A stretch of 64,000 nt of DNA from Zasmidium citrigriseum (taxonomy: Eukaryota; Ascomycota; Dothideomycetes; Mycosphaerellales; Mycosphaerellaceae): NCBI GenBank assembly GCA_002786025.1, contig NHNW01000003.1, positions 682,001 to 746,000 on the forward strand, written 5' to 3'. The notes under the pieces were generated by a model. It was not told the origin of the DNA and made no database searches. It worked only from the letters and a program-made list of their open reading frames with translations. This document shows positions 32,748 to 54,573 of this stretch, one piece after another (the first letter of the stretch is position 1; every line of letters begins with the position of its first letter). A program made the position numbers and the translations under genes.

Positions 32748-33167
32748 ATGGCGCCACTTGTGGTCTTCCCTTACACTATCGACAAGTACACCTGCAGAGC
32801 ATGCGCGCTTTATGACGACGAAGCGGCTGCTGAAGACAGAAACGATCACGTCCAACGCGCGATGGCTCTCACCATCTTCTCGTGCCCCGGCTGCATGAAG
32901 AGCTCGTGTACGGTGGAGACTCTCAGCGCACACTTCGAGGACGAAGACAGCGCCGAGAAGTGCAGGGAATTCAAAGACCTGAGCTACAACGAGATCAACG
33001 CCTCGCAGGCTTTCTGGACTCTGAAACCAAGCAACGCACCAGCACCAGGCATGATCCGCCAGCAGGCGACTATCACTTCAAGGCAGTACCTGGCGATGAA
33101 GCGAGAGGAGCTGCTGCAGCAGAACCCCCACCTCAGGGGCTCGCTTTCGATGCCCGGCCAGCAGTGA
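32748..33167 (+). CDS. Array gene 1: small twin zinc-ribbon-like protein
   Basis: Single exon, 139 residues. Cys/His spacing is C16, C19, H34, C46, C49, C54, H62, C72, that is C-x2-C...H...C-x2-C-x4-C...H...C. The same arrangement appears in array gene 3 and in gene 13 at 61.9 kb, so I call it a shared zinc-binding domain, probably two fingers. The tail is Gln/Met-rich without motif. No known family is recognised. It is the first of twelve consecutive + strand genes. Function unknown; binding of nucleic acid or protein is only inferred from the metal ligands. Confidence 0.65.
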   Translation: MAPLVVFPYTIDKYTCRACALYDDEAAAEDRNDHVQRAMALTIFSCPGCMKSSCTVETLSAHFEDEDSAEKCREFKDLSYNEINASQAFWTLKPSNAPAPGMIRQQATITSRQYLAMKREELLQQNPHLRGSLSMPGQQ

Positions 33168-33559
33168 GGGATTCGACTTCTTCAGCAGCGAGCGCGGCGA
33201 GAACTGAATCACAAGAGTTCTCGCAGACGCGAAAAGAGATCTCAACACGTCGATATTATGGAGTCTGGGGTTGAAGTTCTGATTGACATTCATTCAAGTG
33301 GGGTAGGGCAACGAAAAGTGGATTTGATTCGTCGAGCTACAACTTAGCGTAGCGCACAAGTTAAGCGCGGAAATTTGAAGTTCTCCAAGATCTTGCATCC
33401 CGTCCAAGCGTGCATCTATATCTGTTATCGGCCTTATTCTAATCTCCCAACTCTTTAGACTCCCTAGTAAGTTACCGGTCGTACTCGCTCCTTCAACCTT
33501 GCAATTTCACTCAGGCTAACAAGAGGCGATTCGCAAGACACTCAATCGCTGCGTTCGCG
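33168..33559. other. Array intergenic spacer 1/2
   Basis: Carries the 3' region of array gene 1 and the leader of gene 2. Nothing else seen. Confidence 0.5.
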
Positions 33560-34531
33560 ATGTCAGGCCAGGACGAAGATAGCACCGGGAAGGGCAACGT
33601 CGTCAACCCCACGTCGCCCAACTCACCTAATAACTCGGACGAATCTTTGACGGAACAACCATTCGAAGGCGCAGACGAGTTCGATGTCGATGCAGTCGAT
33701 CTCAGCGCCTTTGCGTCCCTAAAGAAGAGGAAAGATAAGGGTAGAAAGGACGACAATCGAAGGAGCAAACCCGAAGAGGAGATACAAAAGAACCCGACTG
33801 CCAGCAAGGGAGTACAGTGCAACAAGGAGGACATCACCACCGCGAAGAAAGAGGACATCATGCAACCCAGCCAGGTTTCCCAGTGCCCGACCCCCAACAG
33901 CACTGCACGTCAGCCCGATGCAAACCATGTTGCTGGGACTCCACAGACGCCCGAACGTGGCCATATCCAGACCGTCCAGCAGTCTACAGCATCTGGTCAG
34001 CGATCAACTTCCAGACCACCACAGCTGAACGGAAGTTTCACGTCCCAGGCATCAAGATCCCGCAACACGAACCATCAAGCAGGCTTCTCTCCCTCGGCAG
34101 TCTCGACTCCTCCAACACGCCTCAGCAGAGCAAGCGTCGCCAACAACAGCACGTCCGCGACAGGGTCCCCTGCCCGATCCACCTCAAGTACTGGCACCTC
34201 TCCTGCTCGCGCTACCGACGTCCGCCAGAGACCTACAGTCGCTCCACAGAATACCATCGTCAACGAAACGCCAGAGCAGTGGTATCAACGCTTGCAGTCC
34301 GAATTCGCTGCTGCTACGGCGGCGAGAGCTCAGCAAGTCTCCACGGATGAGGACCGAGCTCCTCGCGACGGTACTGCTACTTGGTTGATTCGCAGTTATG
34401 GAGAGGCTCCGCTCAGCCTGACCGACGGTCAGAACAGGAAGCCGCGGAGTGGATGCCCCTACGGTTGTCGAATGCCAGGCGGAGAGCATACGGTGGACTG
34501 CCCGGGTCTCATGGCAACACGTTTCGACTAG
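33560..34531 (+). CDS. Array gene 2: low-complexity protein with C-terminal CCHC-like knuckle
   Basis: Single exon, 323 residues. It begins acidic, followed by a Lys/Arg block (SLKKRKDKGRKDDNRRSK, nuclear-signal-like) and a long Ser/Thr/Pro/Gln-rich, probably disordered region (90-245). PEQWYQRLQSEFAAATAARA may form a short helix. The C-terminus holds C299-x3-C303-x6-H310-x3-C314, read as CPYGCRMPGGEHTVDCP. This tail knuckle recurs in array genes 5, 6, 7, 10 and 13. No other family is recognised. The predicted basic block and zinc knuckle suggest a nuclear, nucleic-acid- or protein-binding role, which is inference. Confidence 0.65.
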   Translation: MSGQDEDSTGKGNVVNPTSPNSPNNSDESLTEQPFEGADEFDVDAVDLSAFASLKKRKDKGRKDDNRRSKPEEEIQKNPTASKGVQCNKEDITTAKKEDIMQPSQVSQCPTPNSTARQPDANHVAGTPQTPERGHIQTVQQSTASGQRSTSRPPQLNGSFTSQASRSRNTNHQAGFSPSAVSTPPTRLSRASVANNSTSATGSPARSTSSTGTSPARATDVRQRPTVAPQNTIVNETPEQWYQRLQSEFAAATAARAQQVSTDEDRAPRDGTATWLIRSYGEAPLSLTDGQNRKPRSGCPYGCRMPGGEHTVDCPGLMATRFD

Positions 34532-35333
34532 CTCAGCACTCAGAAACAAAGAGACTTGAATCGGCTTCATTGATTTGAGACGCCTCTTTGTGTGGACTAT
34601 GAGGTCTCGCTGAGTCTTTATGGTGGTGAACAGGTCGCCCGGATGTACATGAAACAAAGAAGCGAAGGTCTTGAGACTGCAGAACGGAAAGCTGCATCTT
34701 GCAGGGCCGGGAACACCGCAGTTTGGAAATGTAGCTTGCTCAACAGAAACTCTACAAACTTACGTATGGGTGCCTTTAAGGTCGGTGCGCATTGCACAGG
34801 CCTTCAGACTTCTCGTGTCGTTCGCTGTACTCAATTTTGCATCGCGTTATACTCTGTTCCGTCTTCTATACCCATGTCCTTTGCACTTCCTTGGTCTGGA
34901 CCCGTGGTGATTTAGTGCCAGCTAATAAGGCTTCAGCCATGTTCGAGGGCGTACCAATCGATAATGCCGTAGCTGGCGTCATACCTCAGCGCTTCCTACC
35001 AGCATTCACTCGCCTGACTGCCTGACGCGGGAGAACGCGAACGTCGTTGCGATGGCAACGGCGACAGCCAGTGACTTTTTCGGCGTGACGCGGCCGTGCT
35101 TGATCTTTCAGATACTTCCCACCGCTCATCTACCTGCCCGTCCGTCGCTCATTGCAGTCCTCACATACCACGCCGACCCCGAACAGGAAACGCTCTTGTC
35201 GATACTTTGATCCACGTCAACAACTGTGAGCATGAACCCAAGGAGCATTTGAACGAACTCCAGGCTGACTTTGGTAGACCGGAAAAGACCACACTTCAAT
35301 CCCAACCTTCAAGCGACCATCCAATTCAACAAA
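34532..35333. other. Array spacer 2/3
   Basis: About 800 bp with only short frames. The last 150 bases are the probable leader of gene 3. Confidence 0.5.
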
Positions 35334-35867
35334 ATGGCTTTCTACCAACCCGCCATGAACACTCCCGCCCTCGAGATTCCGCCGTGGGTCACCATCCCAA
35401 TCTACGGTTGCTCAAGATGCCAAGTGGAGTCGGGTAGCTGGAGAAAGCTCAACGAACACGTCACACGCTCCAACAAGAGCGGCAGCTACTACACGTGCCC
35501 AGCTTGCAACGACTTCGCCACCTGCGATTCAAACGCGCTCGTGGGCGAAGAGAGCCATGCATCTGTTTGCGTGCTGTGGGACGAATGGAAGCGCCAAAGT
35601 GATGTCAAGTCGAAAGAGGAAATCATCAAGTACGCCTACTCCACCTGTGCAAAGACACCAGGCGCGGCAAATGTGATCTTGAAGTGGGACGATCCAGCGC
35701 CAGCCCCGGTCTACCGGCGGACCTCTCTGGCAGGTTTCCTGGCTGCACGTGGGACAAACACCGCAACAGCATCTGGACCGACGACGCATCTCCCATTGAT
35801 GGCCCAGCGTGCGATTGAATCTGCTCAAGACGCTGGTGCGGCTTCCGCTGATCTACCAAGCGCCTGA
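35334..35867 (+). CDS. Array gene 3: twin zinc-ribbon-like protein, paralogue of gene 1
   Basis: Single exon, 177 residues from the first ATG at 35334; the frame is open 63 bases upstream without an ATG. Ligands are C26, C29, H42, C55, C58, C64, H75, C79, matching gene 1 and gene 13. Outside the ligands, identity with gene 1 is low, so the duplication is old or the sequence evolves fast. The C-terminal half (residues 100-177) is Ala/Thr-rich and may be flexible. Function unknown. Confidence 0.65.
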   Translation: MAFYQPAMNTPALEIPPWVTIPIYGCSRCQVESGSWRKLNEHVTRSNKSGSYYTCPACNDFATCDSNALVGEESHASVCVLWDEWKRQSDVKSKEEIIKYAYSTCAKTPGAANVILKWDDPAPAPVYRRTSLAGFLAARGTNTATASGPTTHLPLMAQRAIESAQDAGAASADLPSA

Positions 35868-36923
35868 GTGTCTGGCTTTCGGTCTGTCCCACGACACACT
35901 TGGGGACGTCTCTAGTTGTGGTTGCAGCCAGAACTTGGTAACAGAGACCTGGCTGGAGTTCAACGGCTGCACTGCATGAGTTCCAAAGCTGGAATTAGAT
36001 TCGGAAACAATGGAGATCATTGGACAATGGAAAGCCAGCAAAGACTAAGAAGAAAGAAGTGCTGGAAGACTCAGGTGGGGATTGTGTGCGTAATTGGACA
36101 GACAAAGTGCATAAGGGACACTCTGATAGTAATGCGTCTTGGATGAGAGTTCGCAACTAAGAGACTAGAGGCAAGAAAACGAAGCTCTTGCAATGCAAGT
36201 GGATTGAAGTTGGCAAAGTTTGCAAGGATTCTCGTACACTGGATATCTCCTCTGCAATGAATTAGCAGATACGTCGATGTAGAACGACCCTGCTTCCACC
36301 CGAAACCTCTGTATTAATGTTGCCTCTGTTTTGGACCGTCTTGGAAGCCAGAGCTCCGCTTTTTGTTGACATTTGAAGGCCTCTGTAGTGATTGTGTTTG
36401 TTAAAAGCAGTTCTACTTTGTATAATCTGGTAAGATATCATGCTCGCAAACATGTTCATGTAATATATTAGGGACCTGTCGTTCGTTACGACGTTCAGTG
36501 AAGTCGATTATATATGATAGCCCCATGCGTGCCGAGTTTCGTTATACAGCCTGACCTTTCTCCATTATATGATTCCAATCTTGGTGTTGCCATAGCTAGC
36601 ATGTACTCTCCCAGCTGTCACATGAAAAGGGGTTGAGCTGACTCAGTCAACTAGCGCGCACCGCTTTCGCGTCGCCAACCGGCATCTTTTTGCGAACCAG
36701 CAACCCCTCCACCACTCTGCGAGGCCCAACGTCTATCACTCGCACATCACCAACAGCCGTTGTACCTCGACATCAGCGCTCAGAATACACCTCCTTAGCA
36801 CCTCAGGTGAGCACATCTCTATGGAAATGGAAGTACGCAGCCACTGACTCCCGGCAGCGACATTGAAACCCAGCCAACCTCAGATTCCTCAATCCTCGCG
36901 ACCAGACTCTCTCCGCCAGCAAG
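35868..36923. other. Array spacer 3/4, AT-richer
   Basis: About 1.06 kb, with AT-rich patches (for example around 36470-36590). No gene or repeat boundary recognised. Confidence 0.5.
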
Positions 36924-37577
36924 ATGTCTTCTCCACGGCGCGGTGGACACACCCGTGCCTGGTACAATCGAGGCTCGAACTTTGGCCCCAGTCCAAACAC
37001 GCCGGCGGCCTCGATTTCGACTGGGTCGCAGAGCAATGCGACCTCTTCGTCAGCTCAGCAGCAGCCCGTCTCCACTCCCGCGCAGGCGACTACTCAAGTC
37101 CCGTCTTCTGGCAACGGTGAAGGCTTGACAGGGGGGTTTGGAGATGCGCGACGTACTCACGCGACTGAAACTGAGTACACGACGATGGAAGCCCGGCTCG
37201 CACGCCAGCGCCTCGTTACACCCCCACCGCCAGATTGCACTGCCGTTATCGTCCGTCCAACTCCTCGAGTACTGTCTTCTCACGCAACTGCGGCAACGGC
37301 TGTACCTGCTCGCAACTCGCCTCAACATCAAGGGGAGCGTCGCCCGCAGAGTTCACCATCGGCTGTTGTTGCCCAAGATGGCTTTGCAACTTCCACGATC
37401 CGCAGCGCTGGCGGACGGCAGAGTCTCTTGGGCAACACGGGAGATGAGGAGGCACCTGAGCAAAAGCGAAAGAGGAGATCGGTGAGCAGGGAGGTTGACG
37501 ATTACCTCGCTGAGCTCGAATCCACAGATGGTGGTGCAAGTCAGCCAGAGCGGAGTGGAATCGTCGAGCATAGATAG
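36924..37577 (+). CDS. Array gene 4: low-complexity protein sharing a motif with gene 5
   Basis: Single exon, 217 residues, Ser/Thr/Gln/Pro-rich. The segment FGDARRTHATE followed by RLVTPP (residues about 72-99) matches FGTVRQTHATE...RLDTPP in array gene 5, at similar spacing. Near the C-terminus QKRKRRSVSREVDDYLAELE is a basic, nuclear-signal-like block running into a short helix. It lacks the C-terminal knuckle, so it may be a truncated relative of gene 5 or may have an unseen 3' exon. Function unknown. Confidence 0.55.
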   Translation: MSSPRRGGHTRAWYNRGSNFGPSPNTPAASISTGSQSNATSSSAQQQPVSTPAQATTQVPSSGNGEGLTGGFGDARRTHATETEYTTMEARLARQRLVTPPPPDCTAVIVRPTPRVLSSHATAATAVPARNSPQHQGERRPQSSPSAVVAQDGFATSTIRSAGGRQSLLGNTGDEEAPEQKRKRRSVSREVDDYLAELESTDGGASQPERSGIVEHR

Positions 37578-38232
37578 GAGGGTGGGTGCCTGAGCCTTGG
37601 TGCGAACGAGGGACACGCCAATGGACGCCCAAGTGAGAATCCGGGTTTTCTGAAGGACTGCGGTGCCATGCAACGTATTACACGAGCGGTCGTAATGGTA
37701 GCTGAAGCAGTGCAGAGGGTTGCGTGCAGATTGGCCAGGGATGCTGTCGTATGTCTGTTAGAAGGCGAGCAGGGTTTGGATGCTTCTCGCTAGGTCTCTA
37801 CAGAAGAACGCGCCTCATGCCTCTACTCGACATATACACAAATTGTTCCACTGGTATAACGACTGGACCAGTAGCCACTGTTTTGTTATGACCGAACATT
37901 CACTCGAAGCAAGTCACGTGAATTGTGGGGCCAGGCGTCATGCGTCGGCTTAAGCCGCAAACATTCTTAAGCCCCTCAAACAAATTTGCGACTGACCCAC
38001 GACACCTCGACAACATCCGACCTCGACAACACCCCACCTCAACTGTTATTTGATCCTGTCCTTACCACGCCCGTACCGCAACACACACTTGCCTGTTCGA
38101 GCTTTCCACTGTGTAGAATTCGAGCCTCGACAGGTACGTCTAGGCGACTTCCCTCTCGACTTCCGCAAGCTAACCACATCAGATCCATCACCAGCACCCG
38201 AACTGCCCAGCCTTTGCGACACCATCATCAAC
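37578..38232. other. Array spacer 4/5 with a leader intron
   Basis: Contains a likely 5'-leader intron for gene 5 at 38134-38182 (GTACGT...GCTAACC...CAG). A short direct repeat of CCTCGACAACA lies near 38004-38031. No other gene. Confidence 0.5.
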
Positions 38233-39834
38233 ATGTCCGGCGTCCGCTGCCTGCGCTGCATCAAGCAGAAGAAGAGGTGCGAGGGCGGTCAACCGTGTCC
38301 TCGTTGCCGCAACGCGGGTGCCGAATGCGTGCCCGAGACAGAGGGAGACTCGACGCAGCGCAAGAATGCAATGCGCCACAAGAAGCGCGGCGCACGGAAG
38401 GCTGCTGCTGCGTCCTCGCCAGCGGGTACTGCTTCACCAGCACCAGCCTCGATCGTGAGCCTCGACGAGGAAGAGGAGGAGCAGGATATGATGGAAGTTG
38501 AGTCTGACGAGGATGACATGCAGTCCGCTCCGGACTCTGTTCTCACTACCAAGCCGCGCTCCACCTCCCTCCGCACACAGGCAAATGGACCGGACTTGTG
38601 GCCTGACCTCGACTGGTCCTACGTGGGTAATGGCCAGTACTGCTTGAGAGAAGGCTACGACCAAGTCATGGCGAAGAAGCAGGCGATGACGGACCGCGCT
38701 GGCCGGCCGACAGGCGCACTCGAGCAACATGCAGGTGATGGCGCCCTTGACCCTGCTGTTCTGCTTGGATTCAACCCCAACTACGTCGTCCAGGCCTTTC
38801 ACGACGTGGAGCCGGACGCTGAACAAGGCGCCGTCAATCCACTGAATCCACTCACTGGTGAGAACGCCCAGCCGCCTCCTCCAACCGAGACTCAGCTCCA
38901 GCGGGAAGAGCTCCTTCGCCAGATCCCACCACACCCCACTTCGATTCCACAGATTCCTCAAGAGCTTCGAGGTAGACCTGAAGACTTCCCATTTGGGGTG
39001 AGAGTCGAGCGTCAAGCTCCCCCCGCGGCCCCTGTCGCACCGCGTGCAGCTGCTTCGACGCCAGCGGCTCCATCAACGCCAGCTGCACCTCCGTCTCAGG
39101 GTATTCCGGTGCCGAGGGTGCCGCCTTCTCGCGAACCAGTTCCAGCAGCTCAAGCGCGGTTTCCACCATCGCATCAGGCTCAGACCACTGTGCAGTCCAC
39201 TTCGACTTACCCAGCGCCAACACGTCCAGCTCCGTCTGCTGTTGCGGCAGCATCAGACAACATTCAGGCTGGTAATATGACGAGAATGACTACAAACATC
39301 TCCACGGCGCAAGAACAGCACGAGAACTTCTACAACCAGGTCGCCAGCATGGACCCTCCAAGCAACAGCGAGACGCGCGCCGAGAATTTGCCCGTGAGAA
39401 ACAACAACACTTCTCGGATGCCTCCTCCTCCAAGACCAGCATCAACGGCAGCTACGAGCAACGCCCCTTCTTGGCTTTGGCCAGGTGACCGACTCATGAC
39501 TGCTTTCGGTACCGTACGGCAGACTCACGCAACCGAGCGTGATCACAACGCGTACCAGTCGCCATACCCGCCCGAGCGTCTTGATACGCCGCCATTCCAG
39601 GGCCAAAACAACCAGTTCACCTCCTCTGCTCCACCTGCTCCATCAATGCGCAGCTACGCTCCACCAAATCATTCTCACGCCAACCACTTCTTCGCGCCCT
39701 TCCAGCAGCCTTATGGCTCGTACGGATATCCGGCATTGCCTCCGAATCCGTATGCGACGTACGGAGTATGCCAGGAGTGCAACTGGCCGAACGCCCAGCA
39801 CGCTGCTCACTGCTCTCGTCGTCGTGCGACGTAA
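38233..39834 (+). CDS. Array gene 5: Zn2Cys6 protein with C-terminal CCHC-like knuckle
   Basis: Single exon, 533 residues; the ATG at 38233 follows a leader intron, although the frame is open further upstream. A canonical fungal Zn(II)2Cys6 cluster is at the N-terminus: C6, C9, C16, C22, C25, C32. A basic stretch (RHKKRGARK) and an acidic run (EEEEEQDMMEVESDEDD) follow. The middle is Pro/Ala/Gln-rich and shows no fungal-specific regulatory domain, which is unusual for a Zn2Cys6 factor. FGTVRQTHATE...RLDTPP is shared with gene 4. The tail has C513-x2-C516-x6-H523-x3-C527. DNA binding by the N-terminal cluster is likely; the rest is unknown. Confidence 0.75.
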   Translation: MSGVRCLRCIKQKKRCEGGQPCPRCRNAGAECVPETEGDSTQRKNAMRHKKRGARKAAAASSPAGTASPAPASIVSLDEEEEEQDMMEVESDEDDMQSAPDSVLTTKPRSTSLRTQANGPDLWPDLDWSYVGNGQYCLREGYDQVMAKKQAMTDRAGRPTGALEQHAGDGALDPAVLLGFNPNYVVQAFHDVEPDAEQGAVNPLNPLTGENAQPPPPTETQLQREELLRQIPPHPTSIPQIPQELRGRPEDFPFGVRVERQAPPAAPVAPRAAASTPAAPSTPAAPPSQGIPVPRVPPSREPVPAAQARFPPSHQAQTTVQSTSTYPAPTRPAPSAVAAASDNIQAGNMTRMTTNISTAQEQHENFYNQVASMDPPSNSETRAENLPVRNNNTSRMPPPPRPASTAATSNAPSWLWPGDRLMTAFGTVRQTHATERDHNAYQSPYPPERLDTPPFQGQNNQFTSSAPPAPSMRSYAPPNHSHANHFFAPFQQPYGSYGYPALPPNPYATYGVCQECNWPNAQHAAHCSRRRAT

Positions 39835-40932: not shown

Positions 40933-43712
40933 ATGACTTCCTACACCTTCGAGTCCCTCAACCTCTCCTTGACCGAGTACACAAGTCACGTCGAGAAGAG
41001 AGTGCTGTTTCCGCTGGTCAACATTGTTCAAGACATCAGCGTCGTCGATCGCGAGACCGGTCAACAGCGTCGCATGACAGCCCCGTCAAGCGTCTTCCTT
41101 CGATACGAGCCTGCAAGAGGTTGGTGCCCACAATTGATTGATTCAAACACCGCTAACGATCAAAGATATTGTGATTCTTGGCGGCAACCAGGGCTCGCCG
41201 ACTTTCGAGGCAGCCGCAGCGGACGCATTGAAATGCGCCTGCCCAACTGCCGACACGCTTGCGCACATCTACAGTGGCAACAGCCACTTCTGCGACGAGA
41301 CCAAGGCAAAGCTGAAGAGAGTCACGTCTGTGAAGGCTTTCGTCAGCGACATCGAGTTGCCGGTGTCCGAAGCTCGAGTCGTCCATACACACACTTTCCT
41401 GCCTGGAATCGATGGAAGCCTTGTGGAACTGCCACAGGGCACTGCATTCGATGTCGGCGATGCAGTCAGTATGCCTGGTAAGTAATACCGTGGTGCTTTA
41501 GAACAGAGCAACGAACTGACTCGTCCCAGACTTCGCGGTCTTAAGGACTACCCGACAAGCACCTCATGCAATCGTCAAGGCAGCAGAACTCGACACCTTC
41601 TCGTCGTTGATGCTTGACGAGGAGAATCTGCCATCGGTACTTGACGGGCAATACGAGACTGTGACAAGCACATACTGGGTTCAGGAGCTGCATCTAGTGT
41701 GCCACGACGTGGATGCTTGCGGAAATCGGGGTATCAAGACGCCGTTGAAGAAGGGGGAGAAGGTTCTCATGCACACAAGAAGCAATGATCGTAAGTGGAG
41801 CAACATTGAGATACTTGATAACTCTTCTGACCTTTTCACAGTGGTTTGGCTCAAAGATACAAAGGGGAGATGTTGCGTGGTCGCAGCAGAGGTCGCTGCC
41901 GCACATCTGATGGACATGAACGTCGAGAGCCTCGTGACCAAGAACCGACATTCATATCAACCGCAGCAAGGAGGCCATATTCCATGGGCCAAACATACGC
42001 CTAATGTGGACAAGCTCTTTCCGGGGGCCTCACAAAACCAGCAACAGCTCAATTCCAAGCAAGCTGCATTGTGCTGTCCCCGAAACAGCGTCGGTCTCCC
42101 ACAGCCACCGCCCAACACCTGGCAGCCGCCTGAGGAACGTCATGCACAAGGCGCAAATCCATTCGGACACTGGCAATTTTCCTCTGAGTACGATCGCGGC
42201 ATTGCGCAGTCATTTGGTCTCTCGAGTGCAGCTAGGACGATGTTCGCTGCTGCAACGGGGCAGCAAGGTCTCGGCTCCATCAAGATCGTTTGGGTACCAG
42301 GAGACTTCGAGGGCTCTCAAGGCGCCGGGTTTGGAGCATGCTCGCCATACATCCACATCTACATGATCGACTTCCGGCGCAAGTGGGCCTATGGGAAGCC
42401 TCGCGTTCCAATGGGAGAGTTACCACTGTATACCGGAACCGACTTGTACTGGCACGAGGCAAAAGGCGCAAATACGACGTTCTTGGATGGACTCCAAGGC
42501 CTTGCAAATCCTGGAGCCACAGCGCCTGTGACTGAGCAATCCCTTTTTGCCGATGCCTGCAAGAGACAAGGCTTTGCTGCTCGAGATCTCCCCACTCCGG
42601 TCGACAACTTGAAGCCGAATCCATCAACTCGTGCGTCCCAAGACTGGCAGCAGGCTCTTCTCCAGGCGTCCGACAGGACTGTTCGCTTGGGACAGCGGAT
42701 GACGAATGAGCATTCGATCAATGCAGGACAGCCAGCGCATCTAGCGACATCATTCCACTCGCAATTTGCAGATTGCGGGTATCACGTCAAGATGCACGAC
42801 TCGAACTACCTACTTCAAAGCCTGCAGGATGTCAAAGACGATGTGTTCCAACCCGGCAAGAAGTGGCTCTCAGTCGGACAAGCAGGACTGCCTCTCCTCA
42901 ATGCCGATGGAGAAAGCACCTTCACAGTCGTTATGGTGCAGACTAAGTCAATCTTCGAAGTCCAAGCCGTTGACATCCCCTGTCTGCCAAAGGCAATTGC
43001 GGCAGATGAGGACTTCGCACTCCTCGAGACCTTCCAGCGGCTCACCAAGGACTGGAAGCAGATTGGTGCGCGTATGAGTGAGCAAGAGCGCTCATACATG
43101 AACGGATACAATTCCATGGCCTGGAAGATCCGGCACTTGTACCGCCTTGTCGACAAGCACACGCTACATGGAGAGCAGCTCACGATGGACGAAGTGGCTC
43201 ACTTCCAGGCAAGTGTTTCAGCGAGGCCGATCACTGACCATCATCGCTCGAGCAATACCCTTCGTGGCTGTGCCCCTGGAAAGGTTGATCCGACCTCTGA
43301 CAGTACTGCGACTGTTCGAGATATCGTCGGAAATCAAGTGATCAATTGGGTTGAGTATCCTCAATGTGATAGCTACTCGGTCGAGAAGCTTCAGCAGCAA
43401 CACAATCTGCAGGAGGCAAAGATTCTCGACAGCCGCTCGCAGATGGTCGGGAAGCAAGCTAGAGAGCTGAATGAAGCCACCCAGCAGGAGGAGGTTGAGG
43501 ACAGCGGTGATGAAGCGGGCGGAGATGATAAGTACGAGCTTCCCCAGGGTGATCAAGAGGGCGAAGACGGTGGAGACACTACGATTGAAGAGTCCACCGA
43601 TCAGGGTGAGGATCAATTAGATCTCACGATTCCATCCTGGGCCCTGGAGGAGTGTGTGCTATGTGGCGAGAGAGGCGAGCACACGGACGAGTGCCCCTTC
43701 AAGCCCTTTTAG
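40933..43712 (+). CDS. Array gene 6: three-module protein with C-terminal knuckle
   Basis: Exons 40933-41119, 41166-41477, 41530-41790 and 41842-43712 give 876 residues. The third intron (51 bp, GTAAGT...CTGAC...CAG) is in frame and stop-free, so a longer product is possible if it is retained. Residues 1-330 form three repeats of a beta-rich module, each split by a phase-1 intron at the same place: after YEPAR, after AVSMP and after HTRSN. The central region (370-700) is unlike anything I recognise and has SIKIVWVPGDFEG and YIHIYMIDFRRKW. A Glu/Asp-rich linker follows. The tail knuckle is C858-x2-C861-x5-H867-x3-C871. Function unknown. Further small introns cannot be excluded. Confidence 0.68.
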
Positions 43713-43918
43713 TGCTTCAAAAAGAGGGTATTTCATCGAGCATTGCGGCATACTAGCGTCACCCAATATTGTCTCGTAACACACTTCTACAACGTCTGCT
43801 CTGTCGCTCTCGGACCTTAAGGCTCTCGATGTCCTTGAGTCTGTCTTGATATACGCCACGCACTTTACTTTGAGTCAACTCCTCTAACTCTGCGAATTTC
43901 AACACCATTCACTTGTCC

Positions 43919-44945
43919 ATGGGACAGCACGTGAAGTCGCTGGATCGCAGAGAGGCACGTGCACGACGCTCGGATAACTTTATTCTAGTCACTGCCTCTG
44001 CGCCCCTCCCAATTCCCGACACGCGTTCCTCGACGTCCAGCATCTGGTCCGTATTCAGTCGGACAACTACCATCGCCGACGGATCTGTCGACAAGGTGAG
44101 AGGATCTCATAAATCCACACCCGTGGAGCTCATCAACTGATCACGGCGGACAGGTACTCGCGCTCGAGTCGCATCTCATCACAGTTCGAGCTCCAGAGGA
44201 TCACTGTCGCAGCACTCTTCGCACTACTCCGACAACATCTTGCACAATGGCTCCACTGGCCATTACCGGCGCGCTCCTCACCACCACCAGCCATCTGGCA
44301 GTGAGGGACCCCGTCACCAATGCAAACACGTTCCTGCCTCCAGGACTGCACCTCCGCGTCGATTCCATCACATCAGGTATGTGGTATTCCGAAGGGGGCA
44401 AGTCTTACCTGCTGACCGCAATAGCGTCCGCCAACATCGCCATTTACGACGGGCGGAGATTCATCGTGCCAATCGCCAACCTCGAGGCGGGGACGATACG
44501 CACTCTGCAAGCTACCTCTTCAACTACTTCAGCGCGGGCCCCCAGCACTGCGTCAGTCCCGCAAGCCCCAACCACAGCCCGACCGCCATTGGCGCCGCAG
44601 CAGGAGGATCAGTCTAACGCCGCCGCGGTCTCTCAAACTTCAACCACTGCTCAATCTCCACCAGACGCGCTGCAGCACTCCAACCAGTCCAACGCCTTGC
44701 CCATTTCTGCCAACGCTGATTCTCAGTCACCATCAATCGCGAGCACCGAGGCAGCGGAGAAGCAAAATCGCTCAGCGCTGGAGCAAGCCAAGAACCGCTT
44801 GCCAGACTGCAAGTTCCTGCAGTGCAAGATGCCTGATGGGAAGCACTCTTACTGGTGCGTCGGATACAAGGACGATGACGAAGAGGAGAAGGAGTACCTG
44901 ATTCCGGACTGGAATGACCAGCGCGAGATGTTCTTTCCCGACTAG
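43919..44945 (+). CDS. Array gene 7: two-module protein with C-terminal knuckle
   Basis: Exons 43919-44095, 44154-44376 and 44425-44945 give 306 residues. A shorter reading from ATG 44247 is open, but the upstream exon encodes FILVTASAPLPIPDTRS, which aligns with FDLEVMVHTPLPIIGITS of gene 11, so I include it. Module 1 is split by a phase-0 intron and module 2 (LAVRDPVTN...GLHLRVDSITS) by a phase-1, 48 bp, in-frame intron (GTATGT...GCTGACC...TAG). A Gln/Ser/Ala-rich linker leads to C262-x4-C267-x6-H274-x3-C278 and an acidic tail ending MFFPD. Function unknown. Confidence 0.62.
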
Positions 44946-45812
44946 ATTGGGGAGACGAGAAGACCAATGAAGATGCATGAGAAACAATCAACACACTCCT
45001 ACAACACGACGGCTCGCTCTGGTCGAGGCCGCAGTTGGTAAGGCTCTTAAAAAGCTCAAGGGCCTATCATGATGGTAGAAGAAGCTCGAGTGGGATGTTG
45101 AACGGGTAGTGCGACTTGTGCACAGCCCTTGGTCTGCATCAAAGAAGAGACCATGGACTACGCAAACAAAGCGCAGAGGGCTTTTGGTACAAGGTGCCGT
45201 TCTTTGTCGCTCCTGTACGTAGCATACGCATCCAAGACGATAGGAATTGGTTGCACAAACGGCAAGTACAGGATTGTCGTCTCTAGGCTTTAGCAATTGA
45301 CTCTTACGAAACTTCGTCTACTTAAATATCTGGTTGTATCCCACAACAGTCGAGCTTCGTCTATTCGACATTCCGTTAAGTGAGGCACGCTTGAATTGAG
45401 CTATCCTATACTTCTCCTATGACTTTGCTACATCACTCTATACACTGTTGAATACACTCTCGTTTGTCTAAATGATTTGTATTTTGAATGTCCGGCGTCT
45501 AGTCGTGTAGCCTAGATCATGTGAATTGTGGAGCTCCTTCGCGGGCCGCCCCCTTGCCGATTCCCCTCCAAAACGCCCGCCACGCACTGCGATTTCTACT
45601 CTTCTCTTCAACGCCTCTTTGGAGTACCACACCACCTCGGACTACAAGACTCACACCGACCCTCAAAGCAGCAATCGCCACTACACCTGAGGACAATAGA
45701 AGCCCGAACTCCTTGGAAAAGGAAGCTCTTCGCCAGATACCTTCAGGTATGTGCCTCTCATGGCTTGATGACTCCCTCTGCTACCTTTGCTGACTCTTGA
45801 GATCTTGTAGCA
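44946..45812. other. Array spacer 7/8 with leader intron
   Basis: A likely leader intron of gene 8 lies at 45747-45810 (GTATGT...GCTGACT...TAG), directly before its ATG. The open frames upstream of it are not in convincing coding context. Confidence 0.5.
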
Positions 45813-47278
45813 ATGGCACAAATGGCACCCTTCTCTCATTACCATGCCTCGATGACCCCCGACAAGCGAATCCGGTCCACAGCATGGGGACCAGCTCAGC
45901 GAGTATCTGCGTGGCTCACAGGCTACACGCTGGATCCCAACATGCCCGAGGCCACGCATATCAACGAAGGCGCGCAGATCATGGTCGGAGACTTCGAGGG
46001 CCCGGATGGTGGGTCGTTACTTTTCCAACCATGTGAAGTCAGGCTAACATGGTCTACAGGCACTCGTGAAGTCCTGACAGCAGATGGCATAGTTCTCCAT
46101 GTATCGCTGCGAGAGCTTAAAGGCCGGGTCCACGCCAATGATTACGTGGACGGAATCTCGATTGGCCCCGGCGGTCAAGATCCAACGGGGCAGCACGACA
46201 ACTTCAAGGCCAGAGAAGTTGAGCTCCGGGGCTTTGTTCAGGACATGACCAACAAAGGCTGGCCAGCCGAAGTCAGAGTGACTCGGGGCTTCGTGGCTAT
46301 CAATGGCTCACCTACAAGTCCTACTGTGCCGATAAAGCGAGGGACCAGGCTGGTCCTACGAGAGCATCCCTATGAACAAGGTATGCTCCCTCACCGATAG
46401 TGCTGTTCTTGATCGCTAACGTCGAAATAGATTATATTTCGATCACCAGTCCAGATTGGCCAGAGGACGTATCCCATCGATCCACTGTTTCCACTCTTGG
46501 CTCCTCATGTTTGCCGACCAATATTGCGATGGCGCGCCATCGGAGCGCAGCTCGGGCGGAAAATGCTCGGCCGCGGCAAGTCTCTGCCCAAGTGCCAGTG
46601 CTGGACCGCACCATAAACAGCGACATGCTGCAGGAAGAGTACACACACGGTAATGCATCAGTGGCATCAGAGCAAGGTGACCAAGCCGACCAAGAGATGG
46701 AACGGGATCCCACACCGCTGGCCATGCAGCAAACCAGCGCCAATCCTATCATCGCAGCGCTGGAAGCTCTCCAACCCAATGGAACTTTTGAACGGACCCT
46801 ACTCACCGTCGACGAGTTGAAAGCGCTCGCAAACAGCGAAGACGACTGGAAACTGGAAGATCTACAGTTCCGCTTGGCCTCGATTGTCGGCAAAGAGTTC
46901 ACGTCTGGATTTGGGCCCGGAAAACTGAAGCCTTTCCTGGATCCTGCTAATGTCGACAAACTCCTACCGATCAATGACCCGATGATCAACGCCAACAACT
47001 CGACCTTCACGCCCAGAAAAGGTCAGAGCTATGTGTCGTGCCGCCTCGTCAGTGCTGCTAAGGGGCGAGAGGTGCACGAAGGTCAGGACGCTTGCCTGGC
47101 CTGTCAGACTGCTGCAATCAAGAACTGGGGCCAGAAGCGGTACTGTCAATGTATGACCGTCGTCGAAAATGACGGGACATTGATCTTTGGCGGAGCATGT
47201 TCGAATTGCGCAAACAACGACCATCCAGACGGTTGCAGTTTCCACCCGAACTACCAGCAGAAGGGTGGGGGTAATTGA
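45813..47278 (+). CDS. Array gene 8: two modules plus C-terminal DUF3716-like cysteine domain
   Basis: Exons 45813-46008, 46060-46380 and 46431-47278 give 454 residues. Both introns are phase 1 and each cuts a module at the equivalent site (after EGPD and after HPYEQ); branch sites GCTAACA and GCTAACG are clear. The first intron is 51 bp and in frame. Module 2 carries VPIKRGTRLVLREH, close to VPVGTRLRIGVRL of gene 11. Residues 200-380 are a linker with LLTVDELKAL. From about 394 a cysteine domain reads ACLACQ...RYCQCM...GGACSNC...GCSFHPN, matching genes 11 and 12 and, I believe, Pfam DUF3716. Here it is C-terminal, the reverse of genes 11 and 12. Function unknown. Confidence 0.7.
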
Positions 47279-47732: not shown

Positions 47733-48320
47733 ATGAGCTCCAACATCAAGCATCTGGCGGCCGCTTATGGCTCTGAAGCACTCGTCACGATCGCTTTCCA
47801 AGCCCTTAACTTCGACGGCGAGGAGGTTGAGATTGAAGCCGGCGCACGCTTGAAGATCGGTGTTCAGCAGACGGAAAACAGAATATTTGAGGCGATGCTC
47901 GGCAATTTGGTCCTTTCTGTGGACGGAGATGTACTAGACAAGTGCAGTCGTCCCCTCGACCCAAACGATACACGCCCTAGCACGCAACTGGTCGGCAGCT
48001 TTGCTAGCCGCAACTACGACCTGAGAAGCTACGTCTCTGACATGCAAAAGCTGGGCGAAGATGCTCTAGTTGTGTCAACGTCGAACGTCGAAGCCAAGAG
48101 GTCCAACAACCACGCCATTACAGTCAATGTCGGTTTCTGCGAGACACTCAAGATTACGAAACTACCGGAGACATCAGGCATGGCTACTTGCTCATTCGGA
48201 GGAGAGGTTTTGCGTGTAGATCAAGCGGTGCTGGAGACCAAGACTGTGCCGACAGATGAGGCATTGTTCAAGTTGGCAAGGGCAGGGGAGAGCACCACAT
48301 CAACGTCTGCTCGGGAGTAG
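47733..48320 (+). CDS. Array gene 9: intronless two-module protein
   Basis: Single exon, 195 residues from ATG 47733. Module 1 (LVTIAFQALNFDG...AGARLKIGVQQTEN...LVLSVDG) and module 2 (YDLRSYVSDM...ITVNVGFCETLKI) resemble those of genes 6-12, but neither is interrupted by an intron. It lacks any zinc motif and ends in a Ser/Thr tail. It may be a minimal family member, a retrocopied piece, or a degraded one; an upstream exon was not found. Function unknown. Confidence 0.6.
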   Translation: MSSNIKHLAAAYGSEALVTIAFQALNFDGEEVEIEAGARLKIGVQQTENRIFEAMLGNLVLSVDGDVLDKCSRPLDPNDTRPSTQLVGSFASRNYDLRSYVSDMQKLGEDALVVSTSNVEAKRSNNHAITVNVGFCETLKITKLPETSGMATCSFGGEVLRVDQAVLETKTVPTDEALFKLARAGESTTSTSARE

Positions 48321-48800: not shown

Positions 48801-50052
48801 ATGGCAGCCAATCCAGGCCAAGAGTTCGACCTCGAGAAGTTCTCGACGCTGTCGCGCAAGCGAGACTTCACCCTCGAGGTGAGGGTCCGAGAGTCCCTCC
48901 CCATTCGGCACCTCATCCACGGCAACTCTGCCAACGTCGCTCAGGGGCGTTTGGTACGGATCGGAGTTCACGTCGTCGACACAGGTGAGAGGCTCTTGCG
49001 ACTGATCGTACATGCAGCGCACTGACTTGCATCAGACTTCTTCCAGATAGCCCTTGAGAACACTCGCGAGTTCGTCTACCGCGCTCAGGGCGACGACCTA
49101 CGCCGTTGCGTCGAGGCTACCGAGCGAACCACAACCGCAGCGACCAAGGAGGCCGGGTGGGAGGATCGCACCACCGAGCCGTTCGTGAGCCACGGTCTAC
49201 TGGAACTGACGCAGACGATCAAGTTGCGCAACCTCGCTGGCGATCCAAAGGAGTTGTTACCGGGAACCTACTTCCATGCGGGCTCGTCTCACCTCTTCCC
49301 AAGCAAGTATCCACTTCCTGCATCTTCGTAGGCCTTTACTAATACTGCGTAGACCACGAAATCATCACGCCATACACCGAGCCAGGTGCCCCCTCCAACT
49401 CACCGCAATACTTCCCCGTGTCTCGAGATGTTCACTTCTCCCTCTTTCAGAGCGGCTTCTTCATCGCTTCGAGTGGAGCGCCTATCCATCTTGGCGACTT
49501 CAGCAGGGACCTCACGGCTGAGGATGATACCAAGACGATCGCGCTCGTGGCGTGGGAAGACTTTGTCGGTCACGGAACCGCGCTTGATCCAGTTCCGGTT
49601 CGGGAGATGGAGGAGGTTGATCAGATCTTCAAGTCCAACCACTCACCCTGTAAGTGTCCTCAATTACACATTTGGAGAAGCCTTTACCAACGTCAGCAGT
49701 GTTCTGGTGCCGCAACAAGTTGGGCATCACTTTCGTCCATGCTCCAGAGACTCCCACTAGATCGAAGCTGGTCAAACCAAGTGTTGCGGGCGAGCCCAAC
49801 ATTGAGCTCATTGCTAGACAGCGCGGCGTTCTGGACTGGGACAATCCGAAGATGGAAGACTACTCGCTTGCCGTAAATGAGTCGCAGAACACCGGAGGGC
49901 CACACCCTCTGCTCTGGGAAGACGAGGAGCAGTGCCTTCATTGCCATCACTTCTTCAAGAACCACGATGAGCAGTGTCCATTTGGCGGCAAGAGGTATAT
50001 GGCGCAGCGGGAGGCGGATCGTGAGGCTGGCTTTACATTTCCGCCATTGTGA
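48801..50052 (+). CDS. Array gene 10: three-module protein with C-terminal knuckle
   Basis: Exons 48801-48984, 49036-49302, 49353-49649 and 49697-50052 give 367 residues. All three introns are phase 1, each within a module: before DFFQIALENT, before NHEIITPY and before VFWCRNKLG. The second intron needs a GC donor (AA|GCAAGT) with branch CTAAT and TAG acceptor; no GT choice keeps frame. The third acceptor is a NAGNAG (49697 or 49700), so Ser-Val or Leu may follow. FTLEVRVRESLPI and DFFQIALENTREF align with genes 11 and 12. The tail has C329-x2-C332-x6-H339-x3-C343, then a basic helix-like end. Function unknown. Confidence 0.68.
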
Positions 50053-50702
50053 GAGTATGATTCGGTGCGACACGAAGGACTACCTTTGTTTACGCTGGTC
50101 GATGGTGTTCAGGACAGTCTGAAAGCGGTGCTGCGTTGGGTTTCATATGTTGCTTTGTTGTAAAGACCGGCACGGTGCTCTATCTGTCGAGTGCCTTTGG
50201 TTAGATTCGTAAAGGTGTTCTAAATGCCCTGCCGCATCGTAAACGGAAATCAAAAGACGATTTTCAAGCTCAGAATGTTGTTCTCTTCAATCAAACTGCG
50301 CAATTCTAGAACAACTTCGAGATAGTCACTGCTACGAATCAGGACTGGCTCTGATGACTGACGGGGGTAGCGGCGCTCTACGTAGATCTTTACGATTGTA
50401 ACCCACTGAGGCCAGAATCCCGCAGCAGAAAGACAGACAGAGCCTGGTATTGTCTCGTCGCTAAATGGAATCATTGATCCCCGTGAAAGCACTAGTGCGA
50501 TGGCGGAAAGTTTCCAGCCAAATCACGGGCATTGTCTTGTCCGAATCCGGCACCCTTCCAGCTAATTCCTAATGACTTGACCTCTACGTACTTCCCATTA
50601 CTGGGATGCAAACTACAACGCCCTCGAATATCCATCTCGTAGCGGTAGATCTTCCGGCATTGCAGATCACAATCGTCAATCCCAGCCACGTCAAACAGCG
50701 CC
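50053..50702. other. Array spacer 10/11
   Basis: About 650 bp without a gene that I can support on either strand. Confidence 0.5.
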
Positions 50703-52138
50703 ATGCCTCCTGGAATGCAACCTGATGTATTCTCTCTGGACGAGATGAAAAACATATGTAAGAATTTCTCCGACTTACCATGGGCGGTATGATGCTAATC
50801 AGTCCTCGTAGCTCGCAATCCATACAATTTCGACTTCGCAGAGATAAACAAGATATATCGGTCAATCGAATACCACAACTATCAAGTCTCTAAACTCGGA
50901 TCTGGCCTGCAGACGTTTTTTGCACGTGCCAACTCTGGCCAACTTTTCCCACCTACCACAGACCCGTATTTCAACGTAACTGTGCCTGGATCCAAGAAAG
51001 AGATCCACCTATGCAAGGGCCGCTATTACCTCGCTGCAATGTTTGGCGCATGTGCACCTTCAGCAGCTGACAGGACCGGCTCAGAGGCGTGTAGCAAGTG
51101 TCAGAATAGTGCGAAAGGAAGATACAAGACATGTCGCCAAGCTTTCGATGGGGCCGGTAACCCCATTGCGTCCGGAGCTTGCATGTCTTGCTACTCTACA
51201 GGTCACTGGAAAAAATGCAGTCTTTCCAATAGCCCAGAAGCTGCTCTGGAGGACGAGGATATGAACGCCGATGAGGAAGAAGACGCATATGAGTTGGATT
51301 TCGACGTCGAAGAATATCATCACCTTTCGACGACCGGCAAGTTCGATCTTGAAGTGATGGTGCACACGCCGCTTCCAATCATTGGAATCACGTCCGTAAC
51401 CAAGGCTAAGGTGCCTGTTGGAACTCGTTTGAGAATTGGCGTTCGTCTGCCCGGTACCAGTAAGTCATTCAACGTTGCTTCACGGCAAGCTCTTGCTGAC
51501 TGGAAATAGATTGGTACCAGATCGAAGCCATTGGTCATCGAGATTTCCTGTTCACTTATAAAGCCGACGCAGAGGATCTCCGTTTCAATGTGAAGACAAC
51601 CGAGCTCACAGAATGGCTTGCAGATGCTCCGGCAGGAACGTTTCAGCCAGGAGATATCCACATCTCGAGCTTGATGCGTATCTGCACGGATATCAGGTGC
51701 CGCAATCTAGCAGGAGTACGCGAGGATATTCCGGCTGGCTTGATGATCTTTGCTGCAGAAGTAAAGCACTTGCCAGGTTTCACAGTCTTCTTCTTCCTCT
51801 CCGACCACCAAGGCGGTGTAGAAGAGAGACAATTGTTTCTGCTACCAGAATGGATGATGGACAGACATTTAGCCCTGGGGACTTTCGAGTACGCCACTGA
51901 TGCTCCAAAGCGCTACTTTTCAGGACTCATCGACTTCACTGAGCATGACGACGAGCGAGATTTCTGGACCACACCATCGAACGATGTCCCCGTATGTGGC
52001 AGCCTCGGCCAGAGTATGATTCTTCCAGCTCGAGAGGAGGTCAATGTCAACATGAGGAATCCGCAAATGCTTCTCACCTGGGGCTTTAATTCACGCGGAG
52101 AGCATTTTGTCGAACTAGGCCAGCAGCTGCAGCCTTGA
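50703..52138 (+). CDS. Array gene 11: DUF3716-like domain followed by three modules
   Basis: Exons 50703-50757, 50812-51459 and 51510-52138 give 443 residues. The 55 bp first exon encodes MPPGMQPDVFSLDEMKNI, which aligns with the equally long first exon of gene 12. Residues 20-80 (FDFAEINKIYRSIEYH, LGSGLQ) also match gene 12. The cysteine domain has C112, C115, C126, C142, C145, C154, with CRQAFDGAGNPIASGAC. An acidic linker (162-185) leads to module 1, FDLEVMVHTPLPI...VPVGTRLRIGVRLPGT, split by a phase-1 intron before NWYQIEA. Two further modules are intronless: residues about 265-345, and 350-443 containing SGLIDFTEHDDE. No signal peptide. Function unknown. Confidence 0.72.
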
Positions 52139-53011
52139 TCTCTGTTCTCCTCCAAACAACAAACTCAAGGCAGGCAGGATGATGTACAGCGACGTTGCAC
52201 AAAGCAATTGCGAGAATATTGGCTTCAATAGATCAGGTACTTCAGCAAAGATCTTCTGTCATGTGTTGCATGAAGGCAGGTAGATTCTCGTGCACCAATT
52301 CCCCAACGTCTTTCCTTGCAAAGATCAAATGTTCTTCGTCCAATGCGAAACCTTGTGCGCTTGGCTTGTAAGACAGGTCATCATACTACATAGCTCATGT
52401 ATCAAAGAAAAAATCAAGAAGTAGTTAAGACCGCTTGTGAATCTCAAAGACACACGCACCGCTACGAAGCGGTCTGTAGAAAAGATCCATAGAACAGGGC
52501 GGTCGGGCTCCGACAAAGAGGCATCATTGCTATAATAGCTTACCAGAAAACCATTACTTTCTATCCGCCATGAGAGAGTGTAGATGTTCATTGATCACCT
52601 CTTCCTTCCAGATGCGACTACGTGCTTCATGAAGAATACTAGGCCGCCGGCGGGCATTAATATGGACTACATTAAGAGTAGCACTTCCGCTGTCAAACGC
52701 TGTATCGCGTATATACCCTTCCCATTATATCAATTCTGTGCATGGAGTTATACGGCATGTGTGAAGAGCCGTCGCCATCGACCTGGAGATTCACATGTTG
52801 CGCTAAGTCACTAGCGCAAAACTCTAAATCGCACCTTGAAATATGCGCCTCTGCTTCCGACTTTGCATCCACCTCACAACCGCGACACCTGAGATTCCGA
52901 CTTGTAACTCTGCCGCACCTACTCCTCGACGCATCGTCCTTCTCGACTTCACAGTAATCGCACCTCCACGAGCACTCCGCGCTATCCTCGACACCAGTGA
53001 AAACCGCGACC
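52139..53011. other. Array spacer 11/12
   Basis: About 870 bp. The end is a CT-rich leader for gene 12. No other gene seen. Confidence 0.5.
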
Positions 53012-54573
53012 ATGGCCTCGATCGCCCCCACCAATGTGTACACTATCCAAGAGCTGGAGGCTCTGGGTAAGTATTGGCCTCGACCCGTCCTCGAACATGG
53101 TTCTAACATAACTCGAAGCAAACGAGATGCGCGCATACGACCTGGCGGAGATCACCAAGATCTTCGACAGCGTCAAATACCATGGCGCAAGCAATCTCTC
53201 GCGACTCGGCAGCGGGCTGACCATCATCTTCGACGTCCGCAATCAAGGCTACCTCTCCCCGCCGATGCATGACCCTGGCCTGAACACCGCCGCCTCGAAG
53301 CAGCACATCACACTCTCGGGCGGCAGAAACTACCTCCGGGCGCTCTTTGCGCAGTGCGCTCCCTCGGCTAAGACTTACGAGGGAAATAAGGCCTGCAAAG
53401 GCTGCCAGAATGTGGGAAACAGGAGGTTCCTGTCCTGTAGACAAGCCTTCGACGCGAATGGGGTCGCTCTCGCTGGAGGCGCTTGTGGGAATTGCGACTC
53501 GCTGTCTCGTGGTAGTAGCTGCAGCTTCCACGAGAGCAACAACAGCTCGGCCTCGACGGCCGCGGCGGCGGGAAGTCAGGCGGCAGGCATGGGAAGCTTT
53601 TCTGCAAACCAGCCTCGAGACGCAGCCTCCCCTTCAAGTTCCACGGCGACTCACAGAGTGAGCCAGCCGAGCCGCAGCGGTGCAAACAGCACCACTTCGC
53701 AGACTCTGGTCCAAGCGACTGCTTCAAGTGGATCATCTACCAGCAACTTCCCCTCCGAGTTCGACAGACTGCATCGATATGCGGAATACAAGATGTTCGA
53801 CCTCATTGTGAAGGTCGAGTCGCCAGTCCTCGTGATAGAACTGCTAACCGGCAAGAACTTCAATGCTCCTGTTGGTCTGGAGCTGAGGGTCGGTCCTCGT
53901 ATCCCAGGAACCGGTAAGCCCCTTAATCGACATTCACAACTTCATTCGCTGACCCAGTGTAGACGCTTTCCAAGTCAAGCAGGGCGGCCTGGAATACTTC
54001 ATGCACCGATCAGAAGGCAAAGAGCTTCGCACCAAGACCACTCCCACCCAGAACACTCTATACTGGGCCGCTCAGCTTTCGGGCTCGTTCACACCGGTCG
54101 CCGACAGGCACATGTATAGCTTCTTGCAGACGAGCAAGTCGATCATCTGCCGCAACACCAAGGGCGAGAAGCAGACCATCCACCCTCGCACTCTCCTGCA
54201 CCAAGGCCAAGCTCGCTACCTGCCTAAGTGCGTCTTCCTCCAGTACTCGCACGTGGACCGAGACAATATTCACCAGATCTTCGAAACCTTCTTTCCTCTG
54301 CCTGGATTCACGTTGGAGAAGCTCATCGAGGACGGTACCCTCATTCATGTCAACGGCTTCGGAGTGACTCCTGTCGAAGGTTCAGTCGACTTCACGGAGC
54401 GTGATGTCCTCGTTGGCAAGACGGTCACTGTGGAGGAGGACATCGTGGCTTGCGGACCCCGTCTGGAAGAGGTTTTGCTAAAGAAGGGCGAGCGTGTCGA
54501 TGTCTTGGTGGTGGGAGGCTCGAACCAGCTCACCTGGGGCAAGACATCGGACGGACGTTTGTTTGTGTTTTGA
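53012..54573 (+). CDS. Array gene 12: DUF3716-like domain followed by three modules, paralogue of gene 11
   Basis: Exons 53012-53066, 53119-53913 and 53963-54573 give 486 residues, with the same intron positions and phases as gene 11. The N-terminal part (YDLAEITKIFDSVKYH, RLGSGLTIIF) and the cysteine domain (C111, C114, C125, C141, C144, C153; CRQAFDANGVALAGGAC) align with gene 11. A Ser/Ala/Thr-rich linker (155-235) differs completely. Module 1 FDLIVKVESPVLV...GLELRVGPRIPGT is split before DAFQVKQ; the third module has GSVDFTERDVLVGK, matching gene 11 SGLIDFTEHDDE. It is the last array gene; the next gene is a convergent P450. Function unknown. Confidence 0.75.

Follow-up and report, generated by a model that had tools for sequence, protein, structure and literature searches.

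What kind of locus is a run of twelve consecutive genes on one strand in which no enzyme is recognized, and do its genes belong together? The question is raised by a 64,000-nucleotide stretch of the Zasmidium citrigriseum genome (GCA_002786025.1, contig NHNW01000003.1), designated here as the window. It corresponds to C72:682001-746000 in a genome of 44.4 Mb and 148 contigs, and the array is located at 714-745 kb of this 1.30 Mb contig. Positions below are those of the window unless a contig is named. The original prediction, made from the sequence alone, described a rapidly diversifying, lineage-specific family of non-enzymatic genes that share zinc and beta-rich parts. The best explanation reached here, held tentatively, is an old, genus-level locus of soluble adaptor-type proteins, in which tandem genes with SH3-like modules are combined with zinc parts. 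The array is older and partly more conserved than the prediction held, and the SH3-like identity of the module and an intron signature are newly named.

Twelve gene models, g1 to g12, fill 32748-54573 on the + strand, from the first ATG to the last stop, and the genes around them are on mixed strands, as had been described. With codon usage trained on 14 Pfam-supported flanking open reading frame (ORF) pieces, the own frame ranked first of six for 13 of 13 genes, that is, the twelve and an additional gene, g13 (61934..63088, +), outside the run. The coding signal was weakest in g4, whose win was marginal (0.03 vs. 0.02). The twelve-gene run and its ends were confirmed by these models. The chance of about 1 in 2000 assigned to the run is correct as arithmetic (2^-11), but the run was chosen only after inspection, and copies arising by tandem duplication would normally share a strand.

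While g1-g5 and g9 have a single exon, 13 introns are distributed among g6, g7, g8, g10, g11, and g12, and most of them split a repeated module. The largest protein, g6 (40933..43712, +, 876 amino acids), is encoded by four exons (40933-41119, 41166-41477, 41530-41790, and 41842-43712). Its intron 1 (41120..41165), intron 2 (41478..41529), and intron 3 (41791..41841) split modules 1, 2, and 3, respectively, which are followed by a conserved core and a C-terminal knuckle at ~43653-43694. The g7 gene (44247..44945, +, 216 amino acids, two exons) has one module with an intron at 44377-44424, then low complexity and a knuckle at ~44808-44858. Two modules are present in g8 (45813..47278, +, 454 amino acids, three exons; introns 46009-46059 and 46381-46430), followed by a C-terminal DUF3716 domain (PF12511; 47063..47245, +), and three in g10 (48801..50052, +, 366 amino acids, four exons; introns 48985-49035, 49303-49352, and 49650-49699), with a knuckle at ~49933-49977. 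The order is reversed in g11 (50703..52138, +, 443 amino acids, three exons; introns 50758-50811 and 51460-51509), where DUF3716 (51081..51224, +) precedes the modules, and in g12 (53012..54573, +, 486 amino acids, three exons; introns 53067-53118 and 53914-53962), where DUF3716 (53385..53531, +) is followed by a linker and modules. Two module-like stretches were recognized by eye in g9 (47733..48320, +, 195 amino acids).

All 13 introns are in phase 1. They are 46-54 bases long, and 12 are GT-AG introns, the remaining one being GC-AG (g10 intron 2). Each site allowed 2-18 frame-keeping introns, the chosen one included; the chosen donor had the top or joint-top consensus score at 13 of 13 sites, and a branch-point-like motif was found in every intron except g10 intron 3 (12/13). 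Eleven introns lie inside modules, at what appears to be one point of the module, and the remaining two, which correspond to each other, follow the 55-base first exons of g11 and g12. A hydrophobic-x-x-G pattern, picked post hoc after inspection, is present 12-13 residues upstream of 8 of the 11 module introns, against a background of 147 of 2,745 positions (5.4%; p = 1e-8), and upstream of 5 of 8 (p = 2e-5) when the BLAST-supported trio is left out. In an anchored test, gapless windows reaching 20 residues to each side of the 11 introns gave z = 8.3 against local shifts and z = 5.5 against random places.

Ten frame-checked introns of Pfam-supported flanking genes were distributed over phases 0, 1, and 2 as 1, 4, and 5. 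The difference in phase 1 (13/13 in the array vs. 4/10 in the flanks) gave a one-sided Fisher value of 0.002, in which the array introns are not independent because duplication would have copied them. The flanking introns kept were 9195-9260, 15679 (phase 1), 16857, 31202, 20414, 13012, 12189, 8234, 7940, and 56419 (phase 2), from a scan that listed 22 rows in the flanks before the frame check. Rows were dropped as out of frame (9195-9241, 14322, 27016, and other-phase readings of 15679 and 56419), as opposite other genes (21620, and 4251 without a frame check), or as array-side or leader (60996-61928 near g13). The same scan recovers 5 of the 13 chosen array introns, the others being missed because it demands open flanks of 60 codons and strict signals. 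Rows at 36807, 44096, and 45747 were left out of the 13 as they precede start codons. The corresponding intron-like sequences, 36807-36857, 44096-44153 (phase 0), and 45747-45810, immediately precede the start codons of g4, g7, and g8, and may represent 5' leader introns or mark upstream coding exons.

BLAST among the 12 proteins aligned g11 and g12 over their entire length (E 3e-44), g10 with the second half of each (~1e-14), and the C-terminus of g8 with the first part of g11 and g12 (2e-15 and 2e-9). Weak links were seen for g6-g12 (43 residues, 1e-4), g4-g5 (48 residues, 3e-5), g2-g7 (0.004), and g8-g9 (0.004-0.009). Judged by sequence, homology is firm only for g8, g10, g11, and g12, and weaker for these four pairs, while g1 and g3 are tied in through a zinc pattern alone. 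That all twelve genes share parts by homology was thus not confirmed, strong links being confined to the former four, and the description as a gene family is supported for g6-g12, by BLAST and by the shared intron site and phase, and weakly for g1-g5.

Seven of the 13 proteins (g2, g3, g5, g6, g9, g12, and g13) were searched singly against the genome. At E ≤ 1e-3, six found only themselves or array members, the exception being g5. The search with g12 brought in g8, g11, and, weakly, g10; g3, g9, and g13 returned only themselves at E ≤ 1, and for g2 nothing else in the genome was below E 0.07. For g5, a single Zn2Cys6-type match was obtained at 8.5e-4; extending the limit to E 0.1 brought twelve additional matches, of which eleven fall in the Zn2Cys6 part. 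A 43-residue stretch of g5 also matches an ORF on contig C59 (40% identity, E 0.0013). This uncharacterized ORF (C59:399460-402441, 994 residues) contains about six FHHxGxGxW-type repeats by eye and has no Pfam match over the cut-off.

Among the zinc parts named in the original prediction, DUF3716 was confirmed. On whole proteins, DUF3716 scored 23.5 bits in g11, over the cut-off of 22, and 20.6 and 18.4 bits, below it, in g12 and g8; in a six-frame genome search all three were over the cut-off (26.2, 24.7, and 22.9 bits, respectively). An N-terminal Zn2Cys6 cluster (PF00172; 22.9 bits vs. a cut-off of 21) is encoded by g5 (38233..39834, +, 533 amino acids), which also has a WPDLxWxYxGxGxYC stretch and a C-terminal knuckle at ~39769-39813. 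PF00172 was the sole Pfam match of g5 at E ≤ 1, and Fungal_trans was not detected. By eye and alignment, a twin Cys/His pattern is common to g1 (32748..33167, +, 139 amino acids, two Cys/His pairs), g3 (35334..35867, +, 177 amino acids), and g13 (384 amino acids), in whose N-terminus C2H2 matches stay below the cut-off. The remaining two genes encode low-complexity proteins: g2 (33560..34531, +, 323 amino acids), with a KKRK stretch and a knuckle at ~34454-34501, and g4 (36924..37577, +, 217 amino acids), with a KRKRR stretch and the 48-residue match to g5.

A C-terminal Cys-Cys-His-Cys (CCHC) knuckle with the spacing C-x1-4-C-x4-6-H-x3-C was found in 7 of the 13 proteins, where 0.003 were expected by shuffling. 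The pattern, fixed post hoc, occurs in 8 of 539 ORFs of at least 100 amino acids over 164 kb, and seven of the eight are genes of the array set. The knuckle of g8 is the end of its DUF3716, and that of g13 lies at ~62999-63034. No zf-CCHC match was found with Pfam in the array proteins scanned. The idea that the knuckle is a detached half of DUF3716 was rejected; the two look alike by eye, yet six C-termini give no Pfam DUF3716 match.

It is possible, although somewhat unlikely, that only g6-g12 are one family, and that g1-g5, with g13, are unrelated same-strand orphans whose zinc patterns are convergent. In BLAST, g1 has no match better than E 0.6 and g3 none at E ≤ 1, no Pfam match over the cut-off was obtained for g1-g4, and the lack of DUF3716 matches in the knuckle stretches also fits such convergence. 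What argues for one set is the knuckle itself, by which g2, g5, and g13 resemble g6, g7, g8, and g10 and which is so rare in the surrounding ORFs, together with the g4-g5 and g2-g7 matches and the same strand throughout the array. The set probably extends to g13, past an opposite-strand P450 gene.

The age of the locus was assessed through relatives in other genomes. For the flanking transcription factor, 522 related proteins were found, the best named ones belonging to Zasmidium cellare, the wine-cellar mold (67-68% identity), which shows that fungal proteins are well represented in the protein database searched. In contrast, g6 has just two relatives at E ≤ 10 among 7,994 scored candidates, both from Z. 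cellare: P0121 (ATCC 36951, 54% identity) and P0122 (PRZ48_007412, 50%). No relatives were found among the scored candidate proteins in an alignment search with g10-g12. The g6 orthologues are on contigs of the same sizes (1,031,926 and 3,401,490) as the transcription factor orthologues. Both relatives found are from Zasmidium and lie on contigs matching those that carry the flanking gene; by this comparison g6, at least, is old and of genus level, and the array is apparently lineage-restricted for the genes tested, in agreement with the prediction. The transcription factor orthologue beside PRZ48_007412 is PRZ48_007421; if the tags are in order, eight genes would lie between them, against eleven here by our count, which hints at gene gain or loss.

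Rapid diversification is a weaker part of the prediction. The paralogues are 24-42% identical (BLAST matches of at least 100 residues), and no direct DNA repeat of at least 24 bases was detected in 30-64 kb with 14-base seeds, so the duplications are old; a recent tandem expansion was rejected for lack of such repeats. One 30-base inverted pair, 77% complementary and 15 kb apart, is present in the same region. On the other side, g6 (50-55% identity) diverges somewhat faster than the one flanking gene compared with it (67-68%).

The two Z. cellare sequences are 74% identical in the flanking gene, and thus three lineages are compared. The assemblies of that name differ by 26% in this transcription factor and by 40% in g6 (P0121/P0122), and one may be misnamed. 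Across the three lineages, identity in g6 is lowest in the linker (25-38%), module 1 (26-39%), and the tail (31-44%), intermediate in modules 2 and 3 (49-66%), and highest in the core residues 361-760 (56-77%).

In 11 of the 12 genes, scanned whole, and in g10, scanned in two pieces only, Pfam gave no enzyme domain over the cut-off. The claim of a non-enzymatic array stands to that extent, and is unproven for the g6 core, which has no identified fold. It is very unlikely that the array is a biochemical pathway cluster of an unrecognized kind, in which this core would be a novel enzyme and the other genes accessory. The many His, Cys, Asp, and Glu positions kept in the core across the three lineages would suit an enzyme; the core has no meaningful Pfam or PDB sequence match, and the other genes resemble binding modules.

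The nature of the module was indicated by structure prediction. In P0121, residues ~25-94, orthologous to g6 module 1, are predicted to fold with a predicted local distance difference test (pLDDT) score of 71-87, and the structure search matches SH3 domains, with sequence identities of 3-17%. An SH3-like fold, a small barrel of five or six strands in about 60 residues, is predicted for this one module. This points to an SH3-like barrel as the probable identity of the beta-rich module. Intron 1 of g6 falls between the predicted strands 53-59 and 65-70, a site that may be read as the n-Src-type loop. Pfam SH3 models gave no match in 10 proteins (E ≤ 1), in g6 with its two orthologues (E ≤ 5), or in g9 (E ≤ 10).

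These observations can be put together as follows. An ancestral gene would have carried an SH3-like module, always interrupted by a phase-1 intron at the same position, and its tandem duplication on one strand would have produced g6-g12. Each exon would then consist of the second half of one module and the first half of the next, and gain or loss of such exons would give the differing module counts; because every intron is in phase 1, exons could be added or removed without breaking the frame. The zinc parts (DUF3716, CCHC knuckle, twin Cys/His, and Zn2Cys6) may have been joined to modules, or stand alone in g1-g5 and g13. The SH3-like modules may interact with protein partners, and the zinc parts with nucleic acid or other proteins, which would make these regulatory or scaffold proteins.

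Several points weigh against this explanation. Without g11, g12, and the first module of g10, the anchored test gives lower z values of 2.6, 1.6, and 0.3 in three windows. Shallow profile comparisons leave the modules unlinked: the best hhalign probability was 0.85% in 10 comparisons, and the best hmmsearch score was 3.7 bits for g9, against 1.2 bits for the best of 260 shuffled decoys. As the anchored signal drops and the profile tests are negative, the common descent of the g6-g12 modules is likely, not proved. The fold prediction is confident for one module only, 802 of the 899 residues of that model being below pLDDT 50, and only the Cys/His spacing joins g1, g3, and g13 to the set. In the Zasmidium orthologues of g6, as annotated, the C-terminal knuckle is missing, and the N-terminus of g7 is mildly hydrophobic in a crude hydropathy scan.

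The low conservation of g6 module 1 might fit a recognition head. In a bolder version of the preferred explanation, to which a low probability is given, the array would be a combinatorial recognition locus: half-module exons, split in the n-Src-type loop, would be swapped between neighbors and recombine binding heads on zinc-bearing tails, producing species-specific sets from one site. The linker and tail of g6 are as divergent as module 1, whose divergence may therefore reflect no more than loose constraint.

An allorecognition or incompatibility locus, in which recognition proteins change fast and a mismatch between alleles sets off a response, had been put forward as one role and is unlikely to a similar degree. 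According to PMC10684091, Neurospora lineage-specific genes cluster with HET genes, mostly near telomeres, and module 1 of g6 evolves faster than its core, both of which favor such a locus. No HET domain was found with Pfam in the array proteins scanned, and no HET place lies within 150 kb on the contig among the 150 scored of 282 candidates, where a weaker unlisted place nearby is possible; the g6 core is well conserved between lineages. The HET repertoire of the genome is large, as these counts indicate. The same paper describes allorecognition genes without HET, so the lack of HET does not exclude this function, for which no other support was obtained.

It is extremely unlikely that the array derives from a mobile element, as a remnant or in domesticated form, or from viral genes with gag-like zinc knuckles. 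The CCHC knuckles at the C-termini recall such genes, but their spacing is unlike the retroviral one, C-x2-C-x4-H-x4-C. The region also lacks direct repeats and has normal short fungal introns, a scan of the array genes together with 20 flanking ORFs detected neither transposase nor reverse transcriptase, and the Zasmidium orthologues of g6 and the flanking gene are on same-sized contigs.

Returning to the adaptor-type explanation, no transmembrane stretch was found in the array proteins by the crude hydropathy scan, and the basic stretches of g2 and g4 resemble nuclear localization signals. The proteins may be soluble, and possibly nuclear, adaptors or regulators. A nucleic-acid or regulator role, as also proposed earlier, is compatible with their parts. 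PADLOC matched none of 9 proteins or exon translations; its library is anti-phage, so this says little on fungi.

The left flank contains, by Pfam, an ABC transporter, a rhamnosidase, a P450, FAD and FMN oxidoreductases, the fungal transcription factor, a permease, and a dioxygenase, and further an enoyl-CoA hydratase, a GMC oxidoreductase, a PCA1-like P-type ATPase, and a sulfotransferase; the right flank contains a P450. Relatives of the transcription factor carry an N-terminal C2H2, so the gene probably has an upstream exon; an intron-like sequence at 16857-16913 (+) is in frame with its start at 16922. Just upstream of g13, the ORF 61066-61665 (+) has a Cys-rich C-terminus that fits the knuckle pattern and may be an upstream exon or leader, with possible introns at 61619-61682 and 61868-61918. 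Over 40 kb on the left side of the window and 60 kb on its right side, BLAST found nothing better than E 0.04 for the array proteins; weak matches were g10 with ORF 64037-64510 (-, E 0.048) and g4 with ORF 101542-102858 (-, E 0.098). The 400 bases upstream of the 13 genes shared no promoter words, and the control likewise gave none.

Fungal orphan gene clusters are common and usually impossible to tie together. One intron site and phase may mark common descent internally and outlast sequence similarity; a few Zasmidium genomes would then suffice to test where an orphan family came from. Movement of half-module exons, if it occurs, would be a case of exon shuffling in fungi; a literature search combining exon shuffling, intron phase, fungi, and SH3 found no paper. 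The almost unstudied fungal domain DUF3716 also gains a genomic context. No paper naming "DUF3716" was found in a literature text search, and PF12511 was reported in a strain-specific gene of Colletotrichum sublineola, one of four there that had no match in databases (PMC5225507).

The array can be compared with several known systems. The Neurospora lineage-specific clusters (PMC10684091) are mostly near telomeres with HET genes, whereas this array is at 714-745 kb of its contig, has no HET place nearby among the candidates scored, and is partly internally related; clustered genes, a lack of relatives, and few known domains are common to both. The modules differ from SH3 and bacterial SH3b domains in having no Pfam SH3 match and identities of 3-17%, and the knuckles depart from the spacing of the retroviral type. 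Many genuine Zn2Cys6 proteins lack the Fungal_trans middle domain. With Zn2Cys6 fungal regulators, g5 shares the N-terminal cluster, and it differs in having a low-complexity body and a C-terminal knuckle instead of Fungal_trans. Of the six DUF3716 places in the genome, three are in the array and three on contig C101, in genes at C101:209269-213539 and 265703-265858. Two of these genes have a chromodomain-like N-terminus by eye, to which Pfam gives no support. The C101 copies (42-57 bits) are nearer to the Pfam profile, and no module was noticed by eye in their proteins, whereas the array copies are divergent (22.9-26.2 bits) and are joined to the modules.

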